Of a stretch of 64,000 bases of DNA, positions 11,552 to 24,411 are shown piece by piece. Source of the DNA: Geobacter sp. DSM 9736 (GTDB taxonomy: Bacteria > Desulfobacterota > Desulfuromonadia > Geobacterales > Geobacteraceae); assembly GCF_900187405.1 (NCBI RefSeq), contig NZ_LT896716.1:1054001-1118000 (forward strand), given 5' to 3'. A program made the position numbers and the translations under genes. How positions within the stretch are numbered: position 1 is the first letter of the stretch; each line of letters begins with the position of its first letter. Under the pieces are notes generated by a model. It ran no database searches. It saw nothing but the letters and a program-made list of their open reading frames with translations, and was not told the DNA's origin.

Positions 11552-13243
11552 ATGCATCATTCCTTCCCCTGGGAGGCGCTCGGGGGACTGGGACTGTTTA
11601 TCCTCGGCATGAAGTTCATGTCTGAAGGGCTCCAGAAAATTGCCGGTGAGCGTATAAGGTGGTTACTGGAGAAGATTGCCGGCAACCGTCTCAGCGCAGC
11701 TCTCGTCGGAGGATGTCTCTCCTCGTTGCTCCAGTCCAGCAGTGCCGCTTCCATAATTGTGATAGGTTTCGTGAATGCCGGCCTGATATCTCTCTATCAG
11801 GCACTGGGCGTACTCCTTGGCACCGGGATCGGCGCCACCGTCGCAGTTCAGTTCATAGCCTTTAAAGTCTCCATCTACTCCCTGCCCGTTATTTTCGTCG
11901 GGGTGCTGCTTAAATTCTTCTGTCGGCGCCGGAGGTGGGTATACCTCGGCGACATGCTGCTTGGTGCCGGACTCGTGTTTCTAGGCCTCCAGACGATGGA
12001 AAGCGGTTTTGCACCACTTAGCCACAGCACGATGGTACATGCCCTGCACAACCACCTCTTTTCCTGGCGAGTCACCGCCGTAGCTCTGGGCGCGGCACTT
12101 ACCTTCCTTACGCAGTCGAGCAGCGCCGCCATCGGGGTTATTATTGCCATGGCCGGAAGCGGCATGTTGAGCTTCACTGCCGGGGCCGCCATGGTCCTCG
12201 GCGACGTCATCGGCACATCTCTCATTGCCGCAATTGCCAGCATCAGCGGAAGTCTTGCCTCAAAGCGGACTGCTCTTGTTTTCTTCCTCATCAACCTTAC
12301 GGCTGTTCTGCTGGTACTTCTCTTCTTCCCGGCGTTTCTCAAACTCGTCCATATCATTTCACCAGGAACCGCCGACCTGGCTGTTCCTGGTCAATTTTCG
12401 GATACCTCGCTCGTGCGGCCCAATATTGCACGTCATCTCGCAAATGTGCATACCGTCTTCAGCTGCATCTGTCTCCTGATCTTTCTCCCTCTGGTTGGAT
12501 TCCTCGCCAGGTCGGCGAGGAGCATTCTTCCTGGAAGAGAGGGGGACATGGACATCGAGCCTCGTGCCAAGTACATCGACAGCCGTGTCATCAATACTCC
12601 CACAATAGCGCTTCTGCAGGTCAGAAACGAGCTGAAGCGGATGGGGGAGATAGCCCGGTCGATGTTCGGCGAGGTGGCCGAACAGTTCTTCAGGTACGAC
12701 GCCAGGAGGACAACCCGACTGAGACAGAAGGAGGAACTCCTTGATATTCTGCAGCGGGAGATTGCGGGTTTCCTCGTGCTCCTGTCGCGCCAGCCTCTCA
12801 ATTCGGCGACTTCGATGCAGATCCCGGTCATGCTCCAGATGGTCACGAGCCTCGAACACATCGGTGATCAGAACGAGACCATCGTCAGGTGCCTCATGAG
12901 GAAAAAGGAGGATCGGATCATCTTTTCGGGGGCCGCAATGTCAGAACTTCGCAATCTGTCGGCGCGAGTCTCGGAGATGGTCGACTTGGCCGTGGAATCC
13001 CTCGCAGGCAACCGGCGGGTCGACGAGGGGGCTGTTCAACAGCTCAAGGATTCCCTGACGGAACAGCATGAGAATATGAAAAGAAATCATCTGTCGCGGC
13101 TCACTGCCGGCAAATGCACCGTGCTCGCCGGAGTCCTTTACAGTGACATTGCAACGGCTTTCATGAAAATTGCAGAGTATGCAGACAGCATAATGGAGAT
13201 CGACAGGAGGTTTATGGATGAGTCGTCCGCTGGCGGCAATTGA
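11552..13243 (+). CDS. Na/Pi cotransporter family protein with PhoU-like C-terminal domain
   Basis: Inner-membrane NptA/SLC34-type sodium-phosphate transporter; 563 residues from ATG 11552, chosen because AGGAG lies 5 nt upstream. An in-frame GTG at 11504 would add 16 non-hydrophobic residues. Two inverted transport repeats carry the signature QSSSA, at residue 61 (LLQSSSAAS) and residue 188 (TQSSSAA). Helical segments run to about residue 340, followed by a soluble helical PhoU-like domain (LRQKEELLDILQREIAGFL, SLEHIGDQNETIVRCL, ATAFMKIAEYADSI). The end overlaps the Ppx/GppA gene by 26 bp, pairing phosphate uptake with polyphosphate turnover. Confidence 0.9.
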   Translation: MHHSFPWEALGGLGLFILGMKFMSEGLQKIAGERIRWLLEKIAGNRLSAALVGGCLSSLLQSSSAASIIVIGFVNAGLISLYQALGVLLGTGIGATVAVQFIAFKVSIYSLPVIFVGVLLKFFCRRRRWVYLGDMLLGAGLVFLGLQTMESGFAPLSHSTMVHALHNHLFSWRVTAVALGAALTFLTQSSSAAIGVIIAMAGSGMLSFTAGAAMVLGDVIGTSLIAAIASISGSLASKRTALVFFLINLTAVLLVLLFFPAFLKLVHIISPGTADLAVPGQFSDTSLVRPNIARHLANVHTVFSCICLLIFLPLVGFLARSARSILPGREGDMDIEPRAKYIDSRVINTPTIALLQVRNELKRMGEIARSMFGEVAEQFFRYDARRTTRLRQKEELLDILQREIAGFLVLLSRQPLNSATSMQIPVMLQMVTSLEHIGDQNETIVRCLMRKKEDRIIFSGAAMSELRNLSARVSEMVDLAVESLAGNRRVDEGAVQQLKDSLTEQHENMKRNHLSRLTAGKCTVLAGVLYSDIATAFMKIAEYADSIMEIDRRFMDESSAGGN

Positions 13244-14132
13244 TCTCGGCACCAATACTGCGCGTCTCCTTATCGGCAGGTGGACTGGAAGCGAGGTGGA
13301 GCAACTTGTACTGAAACGCAGGATTACAAGGCTTGGTGGCGGGTTCAGCAAAGAGAGGGGTATCTCGCCGGAAGCCCAGATGCGAACTGTCGCGGCCATG
13401 CGTGAGTTCGCATACGATATTGCAAATCAGGGAATCCGGCAAATACGGGCAGTAGCCACGAGCGCCGTGCGCGACGCCGCTAACAGAGATGCATTCTGCA
13501 ACGCCGTGCTTAAAGAAACCGGAATAAATCTGGAGGTTATCGACGGTGAAGAAGAGGGGCTTCTCACCTTGCATGGGGTCTGTTCCGGACTGGACGACCA
13601 ATCGGGTAGTCTTCTGGTGTTTGATGTGGGCGGAGGAAGTACCGAGTATACGGTGTCACGTGAGCAAAGGCCGCTCTTCTCGGCGAGCCTCCCGCTCGGC
13701 GTCGTCAGGCTAACGGAAGGAAAATCCACAGCCTCTGCAATGGAGGATAAGATCGAGCGGGAACTCTCGACGCTTTCACTCAGACTCTCCGACCATGGCC
13801 TGTCCCCTCTGCCGTCAGGAACCACCCTTGTCGGAACGGCAGGCACCGCCACTACACTGGCGGCCATCAGTCTCGGTATGACCGAGTACGATTACCGGCG
13901 GGTGAATAACCACATTCTTCCCATGGAAGAGGTGCGGCGGATACTTGCCATGCTCATGCCTTTGACTCCCGCCGAAAGACTCCGGGTGCCCGGGCTCGAA
14001 CCGGGAAGGGAAGACCTCATCATTGCGGGCACATTGATCGCCCTAAAGACGATGGAGCTTTTTCGGTTCGACCGTCTAAAAATCAGTGATTTCGGTCTTC
14101 TGGAAGGGGTCATGAGGAGCATGCTGCGATAG
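13218..14132 (+). CDS. Ppx/GppA-family phosphatase (exopolyphosphatase or pppGpp phosphohydrolase)
   Basis: 304 residues, the short two-domain form of the ASKHA-fold family. Phosphate-1 loop AAIDLGTNTARLLIG is at residue 6, the catalytic glutamate region reads GEEEGLLTLHGV near 110, the phosphate-2 loop FDVGGGSTEYTVS near 135, and VGTAGTATTLAAI near 203. ACAGGAGG precedes the ATG within the 3' end of the transporter gene. The short form lacks the C-terminal HD-like domains of E. coli Ppx, so polyphosphate versus pppGpp specificity cannot be told from sequence alone. Confidence 0.9.
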   Translation: MSRPLAAIDLGTNTARLLIGRWTGSEVEQLVLKRRITRLGGGFSKERGISPEAQMRTVAAMREFAYDIANQGIRQIRAVATSAVRDAANRDAFCNAVLKETGINLEVIDGEEEGLLTLHGVCSGLDDQSGSLLVFDVGGGSTEYTVSREQRPLFSASLPLGVVRLTEGKSTASAMEDKIERELSTLSLRLSDHGLSPLPSGTTLVGTAGTATTLAAISLGMTEYDYRRVNNHILPMEEVRRILAMLMPLTPAERLRVPGLEPGREDLIIAGTLIALKTMELFRFDRLKISDFGLLEGVMRSMLR

Positions 14133-14260
14133 CTACATCTAACCCCGGCCCTATGCCCGCTATTCTCGAAGGGCCTCGACCATTCCTCACCTGCGACGCC
14201 GGAAGCACCTGCTGCCCCCTTTTCGCCAGCTTTAGCACCTAAACTCCCGTTTTAAAGCAG

Positions 14261-14289
14261 TTGACTTGATATCCCCTTTTTTGTATATT
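14261..14289 (+). promoter_or_regulatory. Strong sigma-70-type promoter candidate for the ior-paa-liv cluster
   Basis: TTGACT (14261-14266), exactly 17 nt, TATATT (14284-14289). This is one of the best promoter matches in the window. The predicted start is near 14296, leaving an 80-nt leader that contains the hairpin listed next. The stretch 14133-14260 after the Ppx gene holds no other feature I can support. Confidence 0.65.
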
Positions 14290-14303
14290 CTCGGGGCCGC
14301 TCC

Positions 14304-14328
14304 AAGGGGGATTTCCCCTTATTTTTTT
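14304..14328 (+). terminator. Promoter-proximal terminator-like hairpin (possible attenuator) in the iorA leader
   Basis: AAGGGG and CCCCTT form a stem around a 5-nt loop (14304-14320), followed directly by ATTTTTTT. It lies 15-30 nt after the predicted transcription start and about 50 nt before the iorA ATG, so it should stop much of the transcription unless relieved. I see no leader peptide and cannot name an antiterminator structure or binding protein. Confidence 0.5.
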
Positions 14329-14376
14329 ACCTGCGAAACCCTAACCATCAAGAAACCACAAGCCACAGGAATAACA

Positions 14377-16134
14377 ATGAAAGAAATTCTTTCCGGCAAC
14401 GAAGCCATAGCCCGCGGTGCATTCGAAGCGGGTGTGAGGGTTGCCAGTGCCTATCCGGGCACACCCTCCACTGAAATACTAGAGAATATCGTCAAGTATC
14501 GTGAGATAGACGCTTCTTGGGCGCCCAACGAAAAGGTCGCGCTGGAGGTTGCTATCGGAGCCTCCTTCGGCGGCGGTCGCGCCATCGCCTGCATGAAGCA
14601 TGTAGGGGTCAACGTTGCTGCGGACCCGCTCTTCACCCTGTCCTATACCGGGGTTGGTGGCGGATTCGTTCTTGTTGTTGCCGACGACCCTGAAATGCAT
14701 TCCTCCCAGGATGAACAGGACAGCCGCAACTACGCCAAGTTCGTAAAGATTCCCATGCTGGAACCGTCCAATTCCCAGGAGTGCAAGGATTTTACTAAGC
14801 TTGCCTTCGAGCTCTCAGAGCAGTTCGATACTCCTGTGATGGTTCGCAGTTGCACCAGGATTTCACATGGAAAGTCGATAGTCGAACTTGCTGAGCCGGT
14901 GACAGGACTTCCTGTTCCGAAGCTTGTAAAGAATCCCTCCAAACTCGTCATGCTCCCCGGAAATGCCAGGGTTCGGCATCCTCTTGTGGAAGAGCGGGTC
15001 ATTCGGCTAGGTGAATATGGGTCTAGCGCCGAATTCAACAAAACCGAAATGAGAGATACTTCCGTGGGAGTGATTACCTCTGGTGCTTCCTACAACTACG
15101 TGCGGGAAGTTCTTCCCGATGCGTCCGTCCTCAAGCTGGGTATGGTCTATCCGCTTCCCATGGACCTGATCCGGAAGTTCGCATCGGCTGTTGATAAGCT
15201 GTATGTAGTTGAGGAGCTTGATCCGTTTATAGAGGAGCAGGTTCTTGCGGCAGGCATCCCGGTGACGGGCAAGGAGATCATTCCGATCTGCGGCGAACTG
15301 ACCCCCGGCCGGCTTCGGAAATCTTTCGGTATCGCCGAGGCATCCCAGCCTGCAACCGATAAGCTGCCGGGACGTCCGCCCAACATGTGCCCCGGATGCC
15401 CCCATCGCGGCGTCTTCTACACCCTCAACCAACTCAAGGCATATGTTACCGGTGACATCGGCTGCTATACCCTCGGATTCATGCCACCCCTCAATGCAAT
15501 GGACACATGCGTATGCATGGGAGCGAGCATCAGCAATGCCAGCGGCATTGTTCGGGTTCTCGACGACGAGGAGAAGAAGAAGGTCGTGGCAGTTATAGGG
15601 GACTCCACCTTCCTCCATACCGGGGTAAACAGCTTGATGGAGATGGCATACAACCGTTCTCCCGCCACCGTTGTAATTCTCGATAACCGCATCACCGCTA
15701 TGACAGGCCGCCAGGACAACCCAGCTTCGGGATGGACGCTTATGGATCAGCCCGCAGACGTGGTGGATCTGGAGCAGCTTTGCCGCGCCCTCGGCATCAG
15801 GCACGTCAGAGTGGTGGACCCGTTCGATCTGGAACAGACGAAGGATGTCCTTCGCGAGGAGATGAATCGCCCGGAGCCCTCGGTAGTGATAACAAATCGT
15901 CCCTGCGTTCTCGTGAAGCGGGAAGGGGTTTACACGAAGGGGATACCTCTTTCCGTCGACGAGGAGATATGCTCCGGGTGCAAGGCTTGTCTTAGGATCG
16001 GATGTCCGGCCATTGAATGGCAACCGGGAGCCGAGGGGGCCAAAGGGAAGGCGCTAATAGATCCGCTCTTGTGCAACGGCTGTGACGTGTGCCGCCAGTT
16101 GTGCAAATTCGACGCTATCGGGAGGAAGAAATGA
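14377..16134 (+). CDS. iorA: Indolepyruvate:ferredoxin oxidoreductase, alpha subunit
   Basis: TPP- and iron-sulphur-containing subunit (585 residues) that oxidatively decarboxylates aryl-pyruvates, made by transaminating aromatic amino acids, to aryl-acetyl-CoA while reducing ferredoxin. From the N-terminus: SGNEAIARGAFEAGVRVASA (pyrimidine-binding domain), NMCPGCPHRGVFYTLNQLK near residue 332, the TPP motif GDIGCYTLGFMPPLNAMDTC, GDSTFLHTGVNSL near 408, and two C-terminal [4Fe-4S] motifs, CSGCKACLRIGCP and CNGCDVCRQLCK. I start at ATG 14377; an in-frame upstream start at 14266 lies inside the promoter. The iorB ATG overlaps its stop (ATGA). Confidence 0.95.
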   Translation: MKEILSGNEAIARGAFEAGVRVASAYPGTPSTEILENIVKYREIDASWAPNEKVALEVAIGASFGGGRAIACMKHVGVNVAADPLFTLSYTGVGGGFVLVVADDPEMHSSQDEQDSRNYAKFVKIPMLEPSNSQECKDFTKLAFELSEQFDTPVMVRSCTRISHGKSIVELAEPVTGLPVPKLVKNPSKLVMLPGNARVRHPLVEERVIRLGEYGSSAEFNKTEMRDTSVGVITSGASYNYVREVLPDASVLKLGMVYPLPMDLIRKFASAVDKLYVVEELDPFIEEQVLAAGIPVTGKEIIPICGELTPGRLRKSFGIAEASQPATDKLPGRPPNMCPGCPHRGVFYTLNQLKAYVTGDIGCYTLGFMPPLNAMDTCVCMGASISNASGIVRVLDDEEKKKVVAVIGDSTFLHTGVNSLMEMAYNRSPATVVILDNRITAMTGRQDNPASGWTLMDQPADVVDLEQLCRALGIRHVRVVDPFDLEQTKDVLREEMNRPEPSVVITNRPCVLVKREGVYTKGIPLSVDEEICSGCKACLRIGCPAIEWQPGAEGAKGKALIDPLLCNGCDVCRQLCKFDAIGRKK

Positions 16135-16709
16135 GCGGGACAGTGACCAACGTACTTCTTGTCGGGGTAGGGGGGCAGGGAATCCTGCTCGCTTCGGAAG
16201 TCCTATCCGAAGCCTGCATGCTTGCCGGGCATGACGTTAAGAAGAGTGAGATCCACGGCATGTCGCAGCGGGGAGGGAGCGTCGTTTCCCATGTCCGTTT
16301 CGGCAAGGAGGTATTTTCCCCCATCGTTCCCGAGGGTGAAGGAGACATTCTCTTCGGATTCGAACTGTTGGAGACCTACCGTTACCTGCCGCTTCTCAAG
16401 GCAGGGGGGACCGTCGTCGCCAACGATCTGCGCATTCTCCCCCCGTCGGTCCTACTGGGGCAGGAGCAGTATCCCGACGATCTGCCGGAAAGGATAAGGG
16501 ACCGGTTCCCTGACTTCCTCCTGGTGGACGGCCAGCAGCTGGCGATGGAAGCGGGGAATGTCCGCGCAGCAAACACTGTCCTCCTCGGTGCGGTGTCCAA
16601 ACGGCTCGACATAGAGGAAAAACATTGGCTCGCGGCTCTGGAGAAGATGGTTCCTGCGAAGGCGCTGTCGGTGAACCTCGCTGCTTTCAATGCAGGAAGG
16701 GCTCTCTAG
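16131..16709 (+). CDS. iorB: Indolepyruvate:ferredoxin oxidoreductase, beta subunit
   Basis: 192 residues, the gamma-type domain of 2-oxoacid:ferredoxin oxidoreductases and obligate partner of IorA. Signature VLLVGVGGQGILLASEVLSE at residue 8 and the conserved KSEIHGMSQRGGSVVSHVRF near 40. The start was placed at ATG 16131, overlapping the iorA TGA by 4 bp with GAGGAAG just upstream; the longer in-frame reading lies inside iorA. paaK follows after a 55-bp gap with no obvious terminator. Confidence 0.95.
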   Translation: MSGTVTNVLLVGVGGQGILLASEVLSEACMLAGHDVKKSEIHGMSQRGGSVVSHVRFGKEVFSPIVPEGEGDILFGFELLETYRYLPLLKAGGTVVANDLRILPPSVLLGQEQYPDDLPERIRDRFPDFLLVDGQQLAMEAGNVRAANTVLLGAVSKRLDIEEKHWLAALEKMVPAKALSVNLAAFNAGRAL

Positions 16710-16764: not shown

Positions 16765-18069
16765 ATGATGTTTTTCAACGAGGAGTTCGAGACCCTTCCA
16801 CGCCAGGCTCTCGAAGCGCTGCAGCTCAAGCGACTTAAGTCTCTGGTGGAACGACTTTACGCGAATGTTCCCTTCTACCGCACCTCCCTCGACCGCGCGG
16901 GGGTCACCGCCGACTCCATCACATCTCTTCAGGATTTGCAGCGTCTACCCTTCACTACAAAGCAGGATATGCGCGACTCCTACCCCTATGCCCTTTTTGC
17001 AGCTCCCATGGAGGATATAGTCAGGATACATGCATCAAGCGGCACCACCGGAAAGCCCACCGTCGTCGGTTATACCCAGAGAGACATAGAAACTTGGACT
17101 GAGTTGATGGCGCGCTCCTTTGTGGCTGCCGGAGTTCACAAAGGAGACATAATCCACAACGCCTATGGGTACGGCCTCTTCACCGGCGGGCTCGGCGCCC
17201 ACTATGGGGCAGAGCGGCTCGGAGCCTCAGTGATACCCATATCAGGCGGAAACACGAAGCGCCAGATCATGATCATGCAGGACTTCGGCTCGACGGTCCT
17301 CACCTGCACACCCTCCTACTCCCTCTTCATGGCCGAGGAAGCAAACGCCGAAGGGGTCGACTTCCGCGATCTAAAGCTGCGTGTCGGGATATTCGGGGCG
17401 GAACCATGGTCAGAGGCTATGCGGGGAGAGATCGAGTCAAAGCTGAACCTGGACGCCATCGACATCTACGGCCTATCAGAAATAATGGGCCCGGGTGTTG
17501 CCATCGAATGCATCGAGGCAAAACAGGGCCTGCACATCTGGGAAGATCACTTCATCCCGGAGATAATCGATCCGCAGACAGGGGTGCTGCTTCCCGAAGG
17601 GGAGAAGGGTGAGCTGGTCATCACGACCATAACGAAGCAGGGAATACCGCTGCTCCGTTACCGGACACGGGACATTACAAGCATCACCTACGAGCCCTGC
17701 GCATGCGGCCGTACTCATGCGCGGATAGCCAGAATGAGCGGCCGCTCCGATGACATGCTTATCGTTCGGGGAGTCAACGTTTTCCCATCCCAAATCGAAT
17801 CTATCCTTGTCGGAATAGAGGGGGTGGAGCCCCACTACCTGCTGATAGTGGACCGGAAGGATAACCTCGACACCCTGGAAGTTCAGGTGGAGGTAGACGA
17901 GCGGCTCTTTTCCGACGAAGTAAAGGTACTTCAGGCACTGGCAAAGCAGATCGAGAAAGAGATAAAGGATATGCTTGGGGTGACCAGCAATGTGAAACTG
18001 GTTGAACCCAAAACAATACAACGGAGCGAAGGAAAGGCGAAACGAGTAATCGATAACCGCAGAATCTAG
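16765..18069 (+). CDS. paaK: Phenylacetate-CoA ligase (AMP-forming), first copy
   Basis: Adenylate-forming ligase of 434 residues making phenylacetyl-CoA, or a related aryl-acetyl-CoA, from acid, ATP and CoA. Core motifs: [18 protein letters not shown] near residue 55, the P-loop [16 protein letters not shown] near 90, [13 protein letters not shown] near 210, [10 protein letters not shown] near 235, and the C-terminal hinge [20 protein letters not shown] near 327. ACTGGAGG precedes the ATG. A second copy closes the same cluster. Position between iorAB and an amino-acid transporter points to aryl-acids from aromatic amino acids; the exact substrate is not readable. Confidence 0.92.
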
Positions 18070-18218
18070 GAGTGGTTAGTACCATAGTCTCGCTGACGTC
18101 TTTTGAACCGCCATTTCCCGCGAGCTTCTGCCGCTCCCACGTCCCGCAGTCTGCAGGTGCGACGAACTTACTGTTTCTGAACAAACGATTTTTCCAACAA
18201 CCGCTAAGGGGGCTACCC

Positions 18219-18650
18219 ATGAAAGTCGAACAGATATCGATCTTCATCGAGAACAAGTCGGGAAGGCTTGCTGAGATTACTCGAATTCTTGGCAATGCCG
18301 ACATCAATATCCGCGCCCTGTCTTTGGCAGATACCAGTGACTTCGGGATACTGCGGATGATAGTGAATGACGTGGAGAAAGCCAAGGCAGTTCTCAAGGA
18401 AAAAGGTTTTACCGTCAGCAAAACCGAGGTGGTTGCCGTGGAAGTGTCAGACCGCCCCGGTGGTTTGTCAGAGATTCTCCAGGCGCTCGACCAGAAAGAG
18501 ATCAATGTGGAATACATGTATGCATTCGTCGAGCGTTGCGGAGGCAATGCCGTAATGATCTTCCGATTCGATGAAACCGACAAGGCCATTGCGGTTCTCA
18601 GGGAACAGAACTTCAACGTGCTCGAAGGGGAGCGGCTTTACAGCCTGTAA
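18219..18650 (+). CDS. Tandem ACT-domain protein (predicted amino-acid sensor)
   Basis: 143 residues consisting of two ACT domains and nothing else. Domain 1 (about 1-68) starts [20 protein letters not shown] and continues [20 protein letters not shown]; domain 2 (about 72-143) has [20 protein letters not shown] and [23 protein letters not shown] domains bind amino acids at dimer interfaces. The start at 18219 follows AAGGGGG; 148 bp upstream, after paaK, hold no gene or clear promoter. Stand-alone ACT pairs next to iorAB and paaK are probably allosteric sensors for the module, which is inference from context. Confidence 0.9.
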
Positions 18651-18676: not shown

Positions 18677-19831
18677 ATGATGAAAAGGGTTGCTGTAACA
18701 CTTTTGCTGGCTCTGATGCCTTTCGTAGCAGGTATTAATCTTTCGGAAGCCGCAGGTGGAACCGTCAGAATCGGCGGTCTATTCGCTGTAACCGGCCCTG
18801 CCTCCTTCCTGGGGGAGCCGGAAAAGAAGACACTGGAGATGCTCGTGGCTGAAGCCAATGCCAAGGGGGGCATCAATGGCATGAAGATAGAGGCGGTAAT
18901 CTATGACACCCAGGGAGATGCCACGAAAGCCGTACAGCTTGCCACTAAATTGATCAAGAACGACAAGGTTTCGGTAATCGTCGGCCCCAGCACCACCGGT
19001 GAATCAATGGCAGTCATTCCCGTTGCCGAAAAGGAGCGGGTTCCCCTGATCTCCTGCGCAGCTGGTATCAAGATTACTGAACCGGTCAAGAAATGGGTAT
19101 TCAAGACACCCGCCAATGACCATGTTGCAGCCGAAAAGATACTGAACCACGCAGCGAAAGCGAATATCAGGAATATCGCACTACTCACCGTTACCGATGG
19201 ATTCGGATCATCCGGCCGGGAGCAGATCAAGGCACTGGCCGCCCAGAAGGGATTCAAGATTGTCGCTGACGAAGTGTACGGCCCGAAGGACACCGACATG
19301 ACGGCGCAGCTCACCAAGATCCGGGGTATCAGGCCAGACGCCATCATCTGCTGGGGGACCAACCCCGGTCCTGCCGTCGTTACCAAAAACGTGAAGCAAC
19401 TCGGCATCAGGATCCCACTGTACATGAGCCATGGTGTCGCTTCCAAAAAATACATCGAGCTTGCCGGTGCCGATGCCGCCGAGGGAGTGATGCTTCCAGC
19501 GGGTAAACTGGCCATATTCGACGTTCTTCCCAAGACTGATCCTCAGGTCAAACTTTTGAAGGAGTACAACGCATCATACAAAAAGAACTACGGGGTCGAA
19601 GCTTCTACCTTCGGCGGTTACGCCTATGACGCCTTCCTTCTCATCGCCAATGCCGTCAGGAAAACCGGCGGCTCCACCCCGGAGCAAATCCGTAACGGGA
19701 TCGAGCAGGCCCAGCGACTCGTGAGTGTATCGGGGATCTTCAGCATGACCCCTAGAGACCACAATGGTCTCGACCTCTCCGCATTCGAGATGGTCAGGGT
19801 AACGAAGGGTGACTGGCAACCGATCAAATAA
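18677..19831 (+). CDS. Branched-chain/aromatic amino-acid ABC transporter, periplasmic binding protein 1
   Basis: 384 residues, LivK-type (Peripla_BP_6). Signal peptide of about 26 residues (MKRVAVTLLLALMPFVAGIN, cleavage near SEAAG), then TVRIGGLFAVTGPASFLGEP, where the ligand pocket begins, and VIVGPSTTGESMAVIPVAEK near residue 97. GGGAGGGGAG precedes the double ATG; the first was used. The adjacent downstream gene is a close paralogue sharing long blocks, so the pair arose by tandem duplication. Ligand not readable; context favours hydrophobic or aromatic amino acids. Confidence 0.93.
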   Translation: MMKRVAVTLLLALMPFVAGINLSEAAGGTVRIGGLFAVTGPASFLGEPEKKTLEMLVAEANAKGGINGMKIEAVIYDTQGDATKAVQLATKLIKNDKVSVIVGPSTTGESMAVIPVAEKERVPLISCAAGIKITEPVKKWVFKTPANDHVAAEKILNHAAKANIRNIALLTVTDGFGSSGREQIKALAAQKGFKIVADEVYGPKDTDMTAQLTKIRGIRPDAIICWGTNPGPAVVTKNVKQLGIRIPLYMSHGVASKKYIELAGADAAEGVMLPAGKLAIFDVLPKTDPQVKLLKEYNASYKKNYGVEASTFGGYAYDAFLLIANAVRKTGGSTPEQIRNGIEQAQRLVSVSGIFSMTPRDHNGLDLSAFEMVRVTKGDWQPIK

Positions 19832-19862
19832 CATGTCATGGGGATTTCCCTGAGGAGGTCGT

Positions 19863-20999
19863 ATGAAATTCAATCGGATTGCTGTCGCCACGGCAGCTTT
19901 CACGCTCTTCGCATCAACCGCATTTGCAGCCGGCACAGTCAAAATCGGCGGGCTTTTCGCCGTGACCGGTCCGGCCTCGTTCCTTGGCGAGCCTGAGCGT
20001 AATACCGCGCAGATGGTGGTGGATCAGATCAACAGGGCAGGTGGTGTAAAGGGGCGCAAACTGGAGCTGGTCGCCTATGACACGGCCGGCGATGCCACCA
20101 AGGCTGTACAGCTGGCAAACAAGCTGATCAAGAATGACAAGGTCTCCGCCATAATCGGGCCGAGCACAACTGGTGAATCGATGGCAGTCATTCCTGTTGT
20201 CGAAAAGGAGCAGGTACCTCTCATATCATGCGCTGCCGGTATCAAGATTACCGAGCCGGTTAAAAAATGGGTATTCAAGACAGCCCAGAATGATACTCTT
20301 GCGGTTTCACAGATTTACGAGTATCTGCAGAAACACAGAGTCAACAAGATCGCCATCCTTACGGTTTCAGACGGCTTCGGTTCCTCCGGGCGCGAACAGC
20401 TCAAGGCCCAGGCGGCCAGATATGGAATGCAGATCCTCGTCGATGATACCTTCGGACCGAAGGATACGGACATGACGTCTCAACTTACAAAGATCCGGGG
20501 TTCTCATGCCCAGGCGATCATCTGCTGGGGCACCAATCCGGGACCCGCAATCGTAGCCAAAAATGCGAAACAGCTCGGCATCAAGATCCCTCTCTACATG
20601 AGTCACGGCGTCTCCTCAAAGAAGTTCATTGATCTTGCAGGGGACGCGGCCGAAGGGGTACGTCTTCCTTCCGGTAAAGTCATCGTTGCCGATCTGCTGC
20701 CAAACACCGACGCCCAGAAGAAATCACTTATGAGCTACGTCAAGGCTTACCAGAAGCAGTACAGGGCCGAAGGTGATCACTTCGGTGGACACGCATGGGA
20801 CGCGGTTATGCTGATAAAGGGGGCAATCGAGCGCGGGGCACAAACGCCTGCGGCGATCCGGGACCAGTTGGAGAAGACCCGACAGTTCCACGGGATCGGC
20901 GGAACCTTTACCTATAGCGCTGCCGACCATGCCGGCCTCACCAAGGATGCATTCGTACTGGTCGAAGTGAAGAACAAGGATTGGATGCTTGTAAAATAG
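19863..20999 (+). CDS. Branched-chain/aromatic amino-acid ABC transporter, periplasmic binding protein 2
   Basis: 378 residues with a signal peptide (MKFNRIAVATAAFTLFASTA, cleavage at AFA) and the same Peripla_BP_6 architecture as its upstream neighbour: GTVKIGGLFAVTGPASFLGE, IIGPSTTGESMAVIPVVEKE, SCAAGIKITEPVKKWVFKTA. Differences concentrate in the central and C-terminal parts, for example DTFGPKDTDMTSQLTKIRG stays alike while the region after residue 260 diverges, which could change ligand range. GAGGAGG precedes the ATG. A terminator follows, before the permease genes. Confidence 0.93.
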   Translation: MKFNRIAVATAAFTLFASTAFAAGTVKIGGLFAVTGPASFLGEPERNTAQMVVDQINRAGGVKGRKLELVAYDTAGDATKAVQLANKLIKNDKVSAIIGPSTTGESMAVIPVVEKEQVPLISCAAGIKITEPVKKWVFKTAQNDTLAVSQIYEYLQKHRVNKIAILTVSDGFGSSGREQLKAQAARYGMQILVDDTFGPKDTDMTSQLTKIRGSHAQAIICWGTNPGPAIVAKNAKQLGIKIPLYMSHGVSSKKFIDLAGDAAEGVRLPSGKVIVADLLPNTDAQKKSLMSYVKAYQKQYRAEGDHFGGHAWDAVMLIKGAIERGAQTPAAIRDQLEKTRQFHGIGGTFTYSAADHAGLTKDAFVLVEVKNKDWMLVK

Positions 21000-21024
21000 C
21001 GAGGATATTCCTTCGCGCAACAAC

Positions 21025-21060
21025 CCGAGAGGCACGGGACGCCGTGTCTCTCGCTTTTTT
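21025..21060 (+). terminator. Intrinsic terminator between binding protein 2 and livH
   Basis: CGAGAGGCACGG and CCGTGTCTCTCG form a 12-bp stem with one mismatch (A/C-type) around a GAC-G loop, followed by CTTTTTT. It begins 26 nt after the stop and ends 10 nt before livH, so it probably lets binding proteins be made in excess over the membrane parts. Confidence 0.8.
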
Positions 21061-21069
21061 CCCAGAGGC

Positions 21070-21954
21070 ATGATGCAGGTCGACCAACTTCTTCAGTATT
21101 CGCTTTCAGGACTTTCCACCGGGGCCATCTATGCATTGATCGGCGTAGGGTTCTCGATCATTTACAACTCGACAGGGATCATCAACTTCGCTCAGGGCGA
21201 GTTCGTCATGCTGGGTGGTATGCTGACTCTCTTCTTTCTGAGCGTCCTGAAGTTACCCCTGTGGGCTGCGATACCCTGTGCCATAGCAGTGGCGACCGTT
21301 GCAGGAGTCCTTTTCGAAAGACTCGCCATTCGCCCTCTCCGCCAGGCCACCCCTATCAACCTCGTGATCATCACCATCGGCGGCAGCATTCTCATCAGGG
21401 GGCTTGCAATGCTCCTTTGGGGAAAGGACACTCATGCCGTTCCCCCTTTTTCGGGGGAGGAGCCTATCTCTGTCGCCGGCGCCACAATTCTGCCCCAGCA
21501 TCTGTGGATTCTGGCTATCACAGTTGTCATAATTTTCGTAAACAAGTTCTACTTCTACCACACCATAAGCGGTAAAGCGATGCGAGCCTGCTCATACAAT
21601 CCCCGCGCTGCGGGGCTCGTAGGTATCGATGTACGGCGGATGGTACTCTTTTCCTTCATGATAAGCTCCGCGATGGGTTCTCTTGCCGGTATAATCGTCG
21701 CTCCGCTCACCATGACCTCCTACGACGTAGGCATCATGCTCGGTCTCAAGGGGTTCTGCGCCGCCATCATCGGGGGCATGTCGAGCGGAATGGCAACCGT
21801 TATAGGCGGGCTCATTCTCGGCATCCTGGAATCCCTGGGAGCGGGTCTGGTTTCTTCCGGATACAAGGACGCCATCGCATTCATCATCCTCCTGCTCATT
21901 CTTTTCATACGTCCGCAGGGTCTTTTTGGTAAAGCAGAAACGGAGCGGGTCTAA
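21070..21954 (+). CDS. livH: Branched-chain amino-acid ABC transporter permease LivH
   Basis: Inner-membrane permease of 294 residues with about eight hydrophobic segments. Characteristic LivH text: LLQYSLSGLSTGAIYALIGV at residue 6, IIYNSTGIINFAQGEFVMLG near 30, the coupling region GKAMRACSYNPRAAGLVGID near 170, and GFCAAIIGGMSSGMATVIGG near 232. It heads livHMGF, is spaced 2 bp from livM, and lies just after the terminator. AGAGG precedes the ATG; a second ATG is one codon downstream. Confidence 0.93.
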   Translation: MMQVDQLLQYSLSGLSTGAIYALIGVGFSIIYNSTGIINFAQGEFVMLGGMLTLFFLSVLKLPLWAAIPCAIAVATVAGVLFERLAIRPLRQATPINLVIITIGGSILIRGLAMLLWGKDTHAVPPFSGEEPISVAGATILPQHLWILAITVVIIFVNKFYFYHTISGKAMRACSYNPRAAGLVGIDVRRMVLFSFMISSAMGSLAGIIVAPLTMTSYDVGIMLGLKGFCAAIIGGMSSGMATVIGGLILGILESLGAGLVSSGYKDAIAFIILLLILFIRPQGLFGKAETERV

Positions 21955-21956
21955 CC

Positions 21957-22907
21957 ATGAAAAAAGACCTGATCAAGTTCTTTATCTTTTCAGCAGCTGT
22001 TCTTCTGGCACCCTATGCACTGAAGGGAGGGTATCTGCTTAATGTTACCGTTTTCGTGGGGATTCACACCATTCTTGCCATCGCATTGAACCTGCTTCTC
22101 GGATACGCGGGGCAGATATCCCTCGGGCATGCCGGTTTCTTCGGACTCGGAGCCTACATCTCCGGCGTCCTGACGGCCACCTACGGATGGAACCCATGGA
22201 TCGTCATGGTCGTCGCAGCAGCAGCCATAGGCCTTCTCGCATTCGCCATCGGGTTTCCGATTCTGAAGCTCAAGGGGCACTACCTGGCGATGGCGACTCT
22301 CGGCCTCGGAATCATCCTCTACATCATTTTCAACGAAACCGTAAATCTTACCGGAGGGCCCTCCGGGCTGCCGGGCATCCCGAACCTGACCATCGGAAAT
22401 ATCACGTTCGACAACGATTTCAAGAATTACTATCTCGTTTGGGCCTTTACTCTCGCAGTGACGCTGCTCGCGGTGAACCTTACAAACTCCCGCGTCGGCC
22501 GCGCTTTGCGGGCCATTCACGACTCGGAGGTGGCTGCGCGGGTCATGGGGGTCAACGCCCGACTTCTCAAGGTCCAGATCTTCGCGCTTTCTGCCCTCAT
22601 TTCATCGATAGCAGGCAGTCTCTATGCCCATACCATGACTTTCATCTCTCCTGCTTCTTTCGGGTTCAACTTCTCTGTGGAGCTGCTGACCATGGTGGTC
22701 ATAGGAGGGCTTGGCAGCGTGTACGGGTCCTTCCTCGGAGCGGCGCTACTGACCCTCCTTCCGGAATTTCTCCGGTTCATGCATGACTACGACATCGTTT
22801 TCTACGGCCTCCTTCTCATGCTGATGATCATGTTCATGCCGGGGGGGCTCGTCCGCGGTATCCCGGATCTGATCAGAAAGGCGGCAGGGAAGAGGGGAGG
22901 GGCGTAA
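21957..22907 (+). CDS. livM: Branched-chain amino-acid ABC transporter permease LivM
   Basis: 316 residues, hydrophobic throughout, with the LivM hallmarks LNLLLGYAGQISLGHAGFFG near residue 45, the coupling loop SRVGRALRAIHDSEVAARVM near 180, and TMVVIGGLGSVYGSFLGAAL near 245. It forms the membrane channel with LivH. The 3-bp gap to livG and 2-bp gap from livH indicate one transcript. Confidence 0.93.
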   Translation: MKKDLIKFFIFSAAVLLAPYALKGGYLLNVTVFVGIHTILAIALNLLLGYAGQISLGHAGFFGLGAYISGVLTATYGWNPWIVMVVAAAAIGLLAFAIGFPILKLKGHYLAMATLGLGIILYIIFNETVNLTGGPSGLPGIPNLTIGNITFDNDFKNYYLVWAFTLAVTLLAVNLTNSRVGRALRAIHDSEVAARVMGVNARLLKVQIFALSALISSIAGSLYAHTMTFISPASFGFNFSVELLTMVVIGGLGSVYGSFLGAALLTLLPEFLRFMHDYDIVFYGLLLMLMIMFMPGGLVRGIPDLIRKAAGKRGGA

Positions 22908-22910
22908 TCC

Positions 22911-23666
22911 ATGCTTCAGGTTGCCGGTATTACGCAGATCTTCGGTGGCGTCACCGCCCTCAGTGACGTCTCTTTCTCCATCCGTAGCAATGACATAACC
23001 GGGGTCATCGGCCCAAACGGTGCGGGCAAGACAACTCTCTTCAACATTATCACCGGAATATACCGTCAGACTTCCGGGCAGGTAATTCTTGAGGAGAAGG
23101 ATGTTTCAAGATTCCCTGCTGAACGGCTTGCCCGGCTCGGCCTGGTGCGAACCTTCCAGAACATCGAGCTGTTCGGGAAAATGAGCGTGCGTGAAAATGT
23201 CATGGTGGGTCTGCATACCAGAAGCTCCTGCGGCCTCATCTCCTGCGCCCTAAAAATGCCGTGGGCAATCGCAGAAGAGCGCCGGATACGTGAACAGGCA
23301 ATGCATTGGCTGGATTTCGCAGGAATCACTGATCTGGCCGATATGGAGGCTGGAAATCTTCCGTTCGGGAAGGGGCGTCTTCTGGAGATCGCCCGGGCCA
23401 TGGCGCTGGAGCCGAAGATCATCCTCATGGACGAGCCGGCAGCAGGACTAAACAGCCAGGAGACACTCGGCCTGGCGGAGCTGATCCAGAAGATCAGGAA
23501 CAAAGGAATCACCGTAGTGCTCGTGGAACACGATATGGAGCTGGTGATGGATATCTGCGACCGGATTATCGTTCTGAATCTGGGGAGTAAGCTCGCTGAG
23601 GGCACCCCCCGTGAAATCCAGGAGAACCAGGAAGTTGTAACGGCCTACCTGGGAGAGGATCGATAG
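22911..23666 (+). CDS. livG: Branched-chain amino-acid ABC transporter ATPase LivG
   Basis: 251-residue ATP-binding subunit. Walker A GPNGAGKTTLFNIITG near residue 34, Q-loop VRTFQNIELF near 83, signature NLPFGKGRLLEIARAMALEP near 147, Walker B IILMDEPAAGLN near 172, and H-switch VLVEHDMELVMDICDRI. The signature reads LPFGKGR instead of the usual LSYGxQR, a mild variation. Long spacing between Q-loop and signature and the C-terminal extension are typical of LivG. Followed after 1 bp by livF. Confidence 0.93.
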   Translation: MLQVAGITQIFGGVTALSDVSFSIRSNDITGVIGPNGAGKTTLFNIITGIYRQTSGQVILEEKDVSRFPAERLARLGLVRTFQNIELFGKMSVRENVMVGLHTRSSCGLISCALKMPWAIAEERRIREQAMHWLDFAGITDLADMEAGNLPFGKGRLLEIARAMALEPKIILMDEPAAGLNSQETLGLAELIQKIRNKGITVVLVEHDMELVMDICDRIIVLNLGSKLAEGTPREIQENQEVVTAYLGEDR

Positions 23667-23667
23667 A

Positions 23668-24411
23668 GTGCTGCGCCTCAAGAACGTCAATACCTACTAC
23701 GGCAAGGTCCACGCGCTGAAAAATGTTTCCCTGCATCTTTCTGAAGGGGAAATAGTAACTCTCATCGGCGCCAACGGAGCCGGAAAGACGACCATCCTCA
23801 ACACTATTTCGGGCGTCATTCCTGCGGCCAACGGCGATATTCTCTTTCTCAAGGAGCCGATCCGGACCTTTTCCGCCGATCGAATCGTAAAGCTGGGAAT
23901 TTCACAGGTTCCTGAGGGGAGACAGGTCTTCAAGCCGCTTTCCGTCGAGGACAACCTGGAGCTCGGCGCCTACCTGCGTTATCGGGGGAGGGAAGGTAAA
24001 GAGGAGATCGGCAGGAGCAAGGAAGAAGTCTTCAGGCTCTTCCCCCGCCTTGAGGAGCGTCGACAGCAGATGGCTGGAACGCTTTCCGGAGGGGAGCAGC
24101 AAATGCTTGCCATCGGGCGCGCCCTTATGGCGAAGCCTAAGCTACTGCTCCTGGACGAACCGTCGATGGGTCTGGCGCCTCTGGTGGTGCAGGAAATCTT
24201 CAGGGTGGTATTGAAACTTCGGGACGAACAGGGAACTACGGTGCTCCTTGTTGAGCAGAATGCGAAGGCGGCGCTTAAGCTCGCCGACCGGGGATATGTA
24301 CTGGAGACAGGTAAAGTTATACTTGAAGGTGTTGCATCGGAATTACTGAAAAACAAGGAAGTTGAACGGGCATATCTGGGCAAAGACAAGAAAGAAATCT
24401 GGGAACGGTGA
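23668..24411 (+). CDS. livF: Branched-chain amino-acid ABC transporter ATPase LivF
   Basis: 247-residue second ATPase, starting at GTG 23668 immediately after the livG stop. Walker [17 protein letters not shown] near residue 32, the LivF-type [20 protein letters not shown] near 77, signature [19 protein letters not shown], Walker [17 protein letters not shown] and switch [20 protein letters not shown]. Dimerises with LivG to power uptake. Ten bases separate it from the second paaK, so ligase and transporter are likely co-transcribed. Confidence 0.93.

Follow-up and report, generated by a model that had tools for sequence, protein, structure and literature searches.

Premature transcript ends have been reported in the 5' UTRs of Escherichia coli (PMC7815308), and NusG-dependent pausing has been described at a TTNTTT motif accompanied by a pause hairpin; the residues of Bacillus subtilis NusG that match S85-V86 of the E. 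coli protein are N81-T82 (PMC12288461). Stem-loops that stabilise mRNA from its 5' end are cited in PMC3997798, and the B. subtilis enzyme RppH requires two unpaired nucleotides and prefers three or more (PMC3997798). For the leader treated here, that of iorA in Geobacter sp. DSM 9736, a paper of 2009 is relevant (PMC2700814). Its Table 2 gives two conserved sequences located before iorAB-paaK, Gmet_P1827 (91 nt, G. metallireducens) and GSU1739.1 (98 nt, G. sulfurreducens), both listed under 'possible promoters and riboswitches' with no mechanism; neither 'terminator' nor 'attenuat' occurs in its main text. These entries, matched to our leader by operon and not letter by letter, very likely represent the same region. 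In the openly licensed literature we found no paper on the iorA leader hairpin or on its termination. The hairpin is real, and its region had already been noticed in 2009.

The iorA leader and its operon

The window, by which we mean the whole stretch of 64,000 nucleotides that was analysed, carries on its forward strand a sigma-70-type promoter, TTGACT-N17-TATATT (14261-14289), with the -35 at 14261-14266 and the -10 at 14284-14289. Judged from this promoter, transcription would start at the seventh nucleotide behind the -10, at about 14296. A hairpin that is conserved in relatives follows at 14304-14320, with the arms AAGGGG (14304-14309) and CCCCTT (14315-14320) and the loop GATTT. Behind it comes ATTTTTTT, an A and then seven T (14322-14328); a G+C-rich stem with a T-run directly behind it is the sequence pattern of an intrinsic terminator. 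The T-run is separated by 48 nt from the iorA ATG (14377), and a Shine-Dalgarno-like AGGA can be read at 14367-14370. Promoter, stem, T-run and the 48-nt spacing are all found in the sequence where the original prediction had put them. Upstream of the -35, TAAACTCCCGTTTTA (14240-14254, forward strand) is a possible factor site or UP element; inspection of the aligned leaders by eye gives TAGAAACCCGTTCTA and similar as its counterpart in relatives. Of the 39 leaders from families f1-f3 (see below), 21 have GTTYTA in their final 190 nt, as have 16 of 31 f4-like ones, so that its count is not specific.

All the genes around the leader lie on the forward strand. The upstream neighbour is ppx, of the exopolyphosphatase family (13218-14132; TIGR03706, 225 bits, below the cut-off of 307). 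Downstream are iorA, the alpha subunit of indolepyruvate ferredoxin oxidoreductase (14377-16134; TIGR03336, 729 bits, cut-off 651), and iorB (16089-16709; NF005322, 307 bits, cut-off 237), whose match runs from residue 15 and whose true start is probably some 15-19 codons further in. They are followed by a paaK-type phenylacetate-CoA ligase (16765-18069; TIGR02155, 621 bits, slightly below the cut-off of 646), an ACT-domain pair protein (18072-18650; PF19571, match from residue 50) and a branched-chain amino acid-type ABC transporter with two substrate-binding proteins, two permeases and two ATPases (18677-24411). Within the transporter genes there is a strong hairpin followed by CTTTTTT (21026-21053, forward strand; fold of -22.0 kcal/mol, terminator score above zero), between the end of the second substrate-binding protein gene (20999) and the start of the first permease gene (21070), which could reduce permease and ATPase expression.

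Taken singly, the promoter and the hairpin are within what chance would give in one sequence. A consensus scan of 10 kb found eight promoter-like sites (shuffles 5.4, sd 2.7), and nine terminator-like sites were found in the same length (shuffles 9.0, sd 3.0); the ior promoter has 10 of 12 consensus letters, as have three sites in the 10 kb, itself included. The combination is rarer. Among 33 promoter-like sites on both strands of the 64-kb window, only that of ior has a stem of at least five pairs and a T-run 9-16 nt behind the -10, and the background rate of the stem and T-run arrangement at sampled forward-strand positions is 0.78%. By a terminator score of the d'Aubenton-Carafa type the iorA hairpin (d = +3.1) ranks 10th among the window's 1490 T-rich hairpins, of which ten score above zero; it is terminator-grade but weak. 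Such a score does not support the original idea that the whole ior-paa-liv cluster is shut by default. Among the sequences compared, it is conservation and not any single part that raises the hairpin above chance.

Conservation and geometry of the hairpin

Leaders were collected through IorA searches at two levels: all 48 family genomes searched had a match (E <= 0.001), as had 129 of 141 order genomes at E <= 1e-150. A contig search supplied at least 80 further iorA loci, many of them on contigs already sampled; duplicate leaders were removed, and loci without a usable iorA start were left out (L148, L153 and L171, and also L054, in which the gene start is absent). The test set consisted of 39 leaders of families f1, f2 and f3, with the Geomonas/Citrifermentans/Geomesophilobacter clade of f1 set apart. 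We have used a script that locates the -10 from the sequence and requires, beginning 9-16 nt behind it, a perfect stem of four or more pairs, three being G-C, together with at least five T in 9 nt. It matches 30 of the 39 leaders, where dinucleotide shuffles expect 1.99; by family the matches are 21/26, 1/3 and 8/10 for f1, f2 and f3 (shuffles 1.38, 0.25 and 0.36), and stems of at least five pairs account for 27/39 (19/26, 0/3 and 8/10). By eye, a hairpin with a T-rich tract is seen in 33 of 39, L074 having been dropped for a different and doubtful stem and four leaders added: L049 (G-U pairs), L053 (loop insertion), and L107 and L159 (stem slightly farther from the -10). The original prediction, which would have fallen had stem and U run not been conserved in related genomes, survives this test. 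These 39 leaders are not independent, with several per genus and L063 and L111 nearly identical; the IorA identity across the three families that have the hairpin is about 70-84%. In all 39, as in all 19 leaders of the Geomonas clade, TTGAC is followed after 17-18 nt by a TATA-type -10. The sequence comparison indicates that promoter, adjoining stem and T-run are conserved together as one unit at iorA in different genera and families.

Six of the 39 leaders break the pattern. L011, L072 and L076 have a hairpin without T-run, L016 has a T-rich tract without the 5' arm, and nothing clear is seen in L022 and L074; L011 is the nearest relative of the window by IorA (84% over the whole match). In L053 (G032) the hairpin loop contains a REP-like repeat of about 55 nt, both arms and the T-run being intact. 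This repeat has many partial matches in three g7 genomes (54, 38 and 49) and none in the genome of the window. Another repeat, a GGGGACAGGCACC...-type hairpin, lies between promoter and iorA in the genus g6 leaders L031, L034, L038, L042 and L043; for the stretch taken from L042, G020 shows 47 matches, G023 11 and G028 8.

Pairing was counted in alignment A3, with 39 matches out of 43 sources, which was fitted to the model and is hence biased towards its structure (a MAFFT alignment of the bare hairpin had misplaced arms and was not used). In it 82.4% of cells pair, a value reached by 4/500 shuffles, and the covariation score is 0.155 (again 4/500), while slid versions give 0.033-0.089. Three of five pairs have changed on both sides, against a shuffle mean of 1.8 (79/500 shuffles reach this), and the same analysis gave 8 cells (29/500) and 9 further pair types (28/500). 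The covariation support is modest because the GGGG/CCCC core barely varies. Arm pairs that illustrate exchange are, beside AAGGGG/CCCCTT, CGGGAA/TTCCCG in L050 and TGGCGG/CCGCTA in L046. A covariance model of promoter, hairpin and T-run finds matches at E < 0.002 in 24 of 48 family genomes, every one of them at the iorA leader, and its best match elsewhere has E 0.006; this genome scan used stricter filters, with which weak matches can be lost.

The distances within the leaders are informative about what the hairpin belongs to. In 28 of the 30 script matches (L074 and L099 excluded) the hairpin centre is 20.4 nt from the -10, with an sd of 0.94, and the hairpin 3' end 28.6 nt (sd 1.7). The distance from stem end to ATG, in 28 leaders, runs from 20 to 102 nt (sd 25.7; 20-31 nt in most). 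From the small spread in the former and the large spread in the latter it follows that hairpin and T-run track the promoter and not the ribosome-binding site. The stem starts near +9 in the leader of the window and at +5 to +10 in relatives, counted from the inferred start. The 9 nt behind the stem contain 6.7 T on average (33 leaders), compared with 29% T elsewhere in those leaders; the T-rich tract is found 3' of the stem only, and adjoins it even where the leader is long (stem end to ATG 56 nt in L003 and 92-102 nt in L012-L015).

The main rival of a pause or termination signal is a protective hairpin at the 5' end, the stem shielding the mRNA from decay and the U-rich tract serving as a single-stranded landing site for ribosomes before the Shine-Dalgarno. 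From the sequences this appears possible, if on the unlikely side. It would account for the constant place of the stem at about +5 to +10, which is no requirement of a terminator, for the stems of L011, L072 and L076 that have no T-run (that of L011 is strong, with a leader fold of -15.5 kcal/mol), and for the T-run lying shortly before the start codon in most leaders, and stabilising stem-loops have the precedents mentioned at the outset. In the longer leaders, however, the T-run stays by the stem and not by the ribosome-binding site, and with a start 7 nt behind the -10 the stem would be preceded by 4-9 unpaired nt; as B. subtilis RppH requires two and prefers three or more, protection would be poor. 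Compared with pausing or termination, a protective hairpin accounts better for the fixed distance and for stems that have no T-run, and less well for a T-run attached to the stem. In a second alternative a regulator would bind a DNA palindrome immediately behind the promoter, which would fit the well-kept GGGG/CCCC core and the fixed place of the palindrome's centre. Such a site is made very improbable by the spacing of the arms, which varies (loops of 3-6 nt in 28 leaders, about 60 nt in L053), by the changed arm letters of L046 and L050 and by the one-sided T-run.

The hairpin could also belong to the upstream gene as the terminator of ppx, which is the same-strand neighbour at 38 of 39 f1-f3 loci. 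L011, which has no T-run, has no ppx match upstream either, and the Geomonas clade, without hairpin and T-run, shows no ppx match upstream in the 6 loci checked out of 19; these losses may be two events only. Set against them is a divergent gene of about 105 aa between ppx and iorA at 13 of 39 loci, 11 of which keep hairpin and T-run (upstream genes were called by search with Ppx, leaving uncounted some long frames in antisense whose starts differ, as in L010, L016 and L119). Moreover, the hairpin moves with the ior promoter, and Desulfuromonas-type loci (e.g. L132 and L136) have what by eye is a ppx-like 3' end before the same promoter type and no hairpin. We regard a ppx terminator as the least probable of the alternatives. 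The divergent gene (e.g. L012, L030, L051 and L063) has a signal-peptide-like start and occurs in some of the genera only.

Relatives that lack the hairpin

No hairpin was found in the 19 leaders of the Geomonas clade (0.04 expected from shuffles), nor in 31 f4-like and 9 Trichlorobacter-type leaders in which the -10 was located directly. A loose scan over all promoter-like sites of 70 leaders outside f1-f3 gave three matches (L066, L136 and L143), all more than 120 nt from the ATG, which are taken as chance. The f4 and Trichlorobacter-type leaders have a palindrome-like motif, AAACRWWTTGM, at the -35 in 36 of 40 cases (e.g. L061, L095 and L169), and this motif occurs in 0/39 f1-f3, 0/19 Geomonas-clade and 0/30 other leaders. 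In L169 it reads TTGCAAACGTTTGCAA, which we take to resemble the operators of the LacI family. The motif, which overlaps the ior -35, hints at a repressor or activator site. The Geomonas clade is without both devices, having neither the hairpin nor the LacI-like motif. The gene order is kept in the lineages without the element, and in the Geomonas clade the promoter type too, from which it follows that expression does not need the hairpin.

In an IorA tree built by a quick method from 77 rows, with 18 of its 74 inner branches open (L051, L052, L053, L159, L165 and L169 left out because their protein was too short), leaders with hairpin and T-run are scattered over the Geobacter-side clade. On this pattern the element is probably old, with several losses. 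Its absence or breakage in many lineages would also be expected of a relic, a neutral feature kept by short time and tight linkage to the promoter. We find this hard to credit, given three families with IorA only about 70-84% identical, stems rebuilt with other letters and 30 matches where 2 were expected. Two distant leaders, L147 and L149 (IorA about 62%), have by eye long terminator-like hairpins with T-runs some 25-30 nt before iorA, shortly behind the apparent end of the upstream gene, and in L147 with TTGATT-N17-TATAAA in front. They may be terminators of that upstream gene, and they are outside the scan matches, either missed or with loops too long.

A candidate early pause or termination signal and its known counterparts

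Known regulatory RNAs gave no match above the gathering score in an Rfam scan of the window and of the leader alone, covering riboswitches, T-boxes and other leaders; four weak matches (E 0.31 to 7.6) were far under the gathering scores. From the inferred start up to the iorA ATG the leader of the window has no ATG, GTG or TTG, and therefore no leader peptide ORF. On both points the original prediction holds, while the antiterminator that it invoked finds no support. By eye and in 13 leader folds, a competing strand is seen only in the three leaders of genus g15 (L099, L107 and L159). There, CCCC before the stem could pair with the GGGG arm and open the hairpin, making CCCC-GGGG-CCC a possible three-strand switch within about 30 nt; the fold of L107 is the alternative stem. 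A three-strand switch as a general device was dropped, the strand being confined to g15. The ACT-domain protein was likewise dropped as a partner of the hairpin, as it is present at 72 of 80 loci (some of the other 8 are partial), with and without hairpin.

Architecture, conservation, fixed geometry and restriction to iorA are established by these comparisons. We infer from them, tentatively and with a little less than even confidence, that the element is a promoter-locked, cis-acting pause or termination signal near +30. RNA polymerase would start at about 14296 and, some 25 nt on, the new RNA would fold into the 6-pair hairpin while the polymerase is on the T-rich tract. A share of polymerases would then pause or stop near +27 to +36, freeing a tiny RNA, and the remaining ones would continue into iorA and the paaK-ACT-liv genes. 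How strongly it would do so, and which signal would act, are likewise matters of inference. The element would set, and perhaps adjust, the fraction of starts that become operon mRNA. In most genomes the RNA in front of the stem is just 4-9 nt long, too short to hold an aptamer, a leader peptide or a competing stem, and regulation would then have to come from the transcription machinery or from a factor on it or on the hairpin (NusA/NusG, a hairpin-melting protein or another).

A pause or termination signal is favoured by the recurrence of hairpin and T-run at the same place (30/39 versus 1.99) with the T-rich tract 3' only, by a position that tracks the promoter and a T-run that stays with the stem when the ATG is about 100 nt away (L012-L015), by a terminator score that is positive though low, by the L053 insertion, which spares arms and T-run, and by the other control-like motif of hairpin-free relatives. 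Against it are the weak score, the six leaders of 39 that break the pattern with L011 among them, a distance to the start that is fixed although a terminator does not require it, the modest covariation and the lack of the element in the whole Geomonas clade (0/19). A bolder version of the same proposal, which from sequence comparison we consider unlikely as a whole, is a minimal attenuator. Promoter and terminator-type hairpin would form one rigid unit of about 70 bp, with control exerted within the first ~30 nt of the polymerase's path, by NusG/NusA, by sigma that is retained or by a factor binding the hairpin. No aptamer, leader peptide or alternative fold would take part, and at the same operon other relatives have a LacI-like operator motif in its place.

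If the leader does pause or terminate transcription, it would be a very short device, consisting of a stop signal whose distance from the start site is fixed, and no other part of the RNA could steer it. Control would then act on early elongation itself, and the sequence that the 2009 paper lists as conserved in two Geobacter species would have a function. Across the order, the split between hairpin and operator would allow two ways of controlling a single aromatic amino-acid operon to be compared in nature.

Among the systems described, the mRNA-stabilising 5' stem-loops (PMC3997798) would share with the iorA leader, if transcription starts 7 nt behind the -10, a stem near the 5' end of the RNA; the iorA stem differs from them in the attached T-run and in probably having too many unpaired 5' nucleotides. 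With the NusG-dependent pause (PMC12288461) the leader shares a hairpin and then TTNTTT, which is found behind the hairpin in 27 of 33 tails, versus 5.0% of 16-mers elsewhere in the same leaders; a T-rich tract by itself readily yields such matches. The NusG of this genome has E-T at the positions of E. coli S85-V86; of the two motif-reading residues of B. subtilis, N81 and T82, only the T agrees. Leader attenuation by intrinsic terminators is resembled in that a terminator-type hairpin with a T-run lies between the promoter, with its inferred start site, and the first gene of an amino-acid operon. Unlike in such attenuation, no aptamer, leader peptide or competing strand precedes the iorA hairpin, which begins at about +5 to +10 and keeps a fixed distance to its promoter. 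To our knowledge, a hairpin starting so close to the transcription start would be unusually short for an attenuator.
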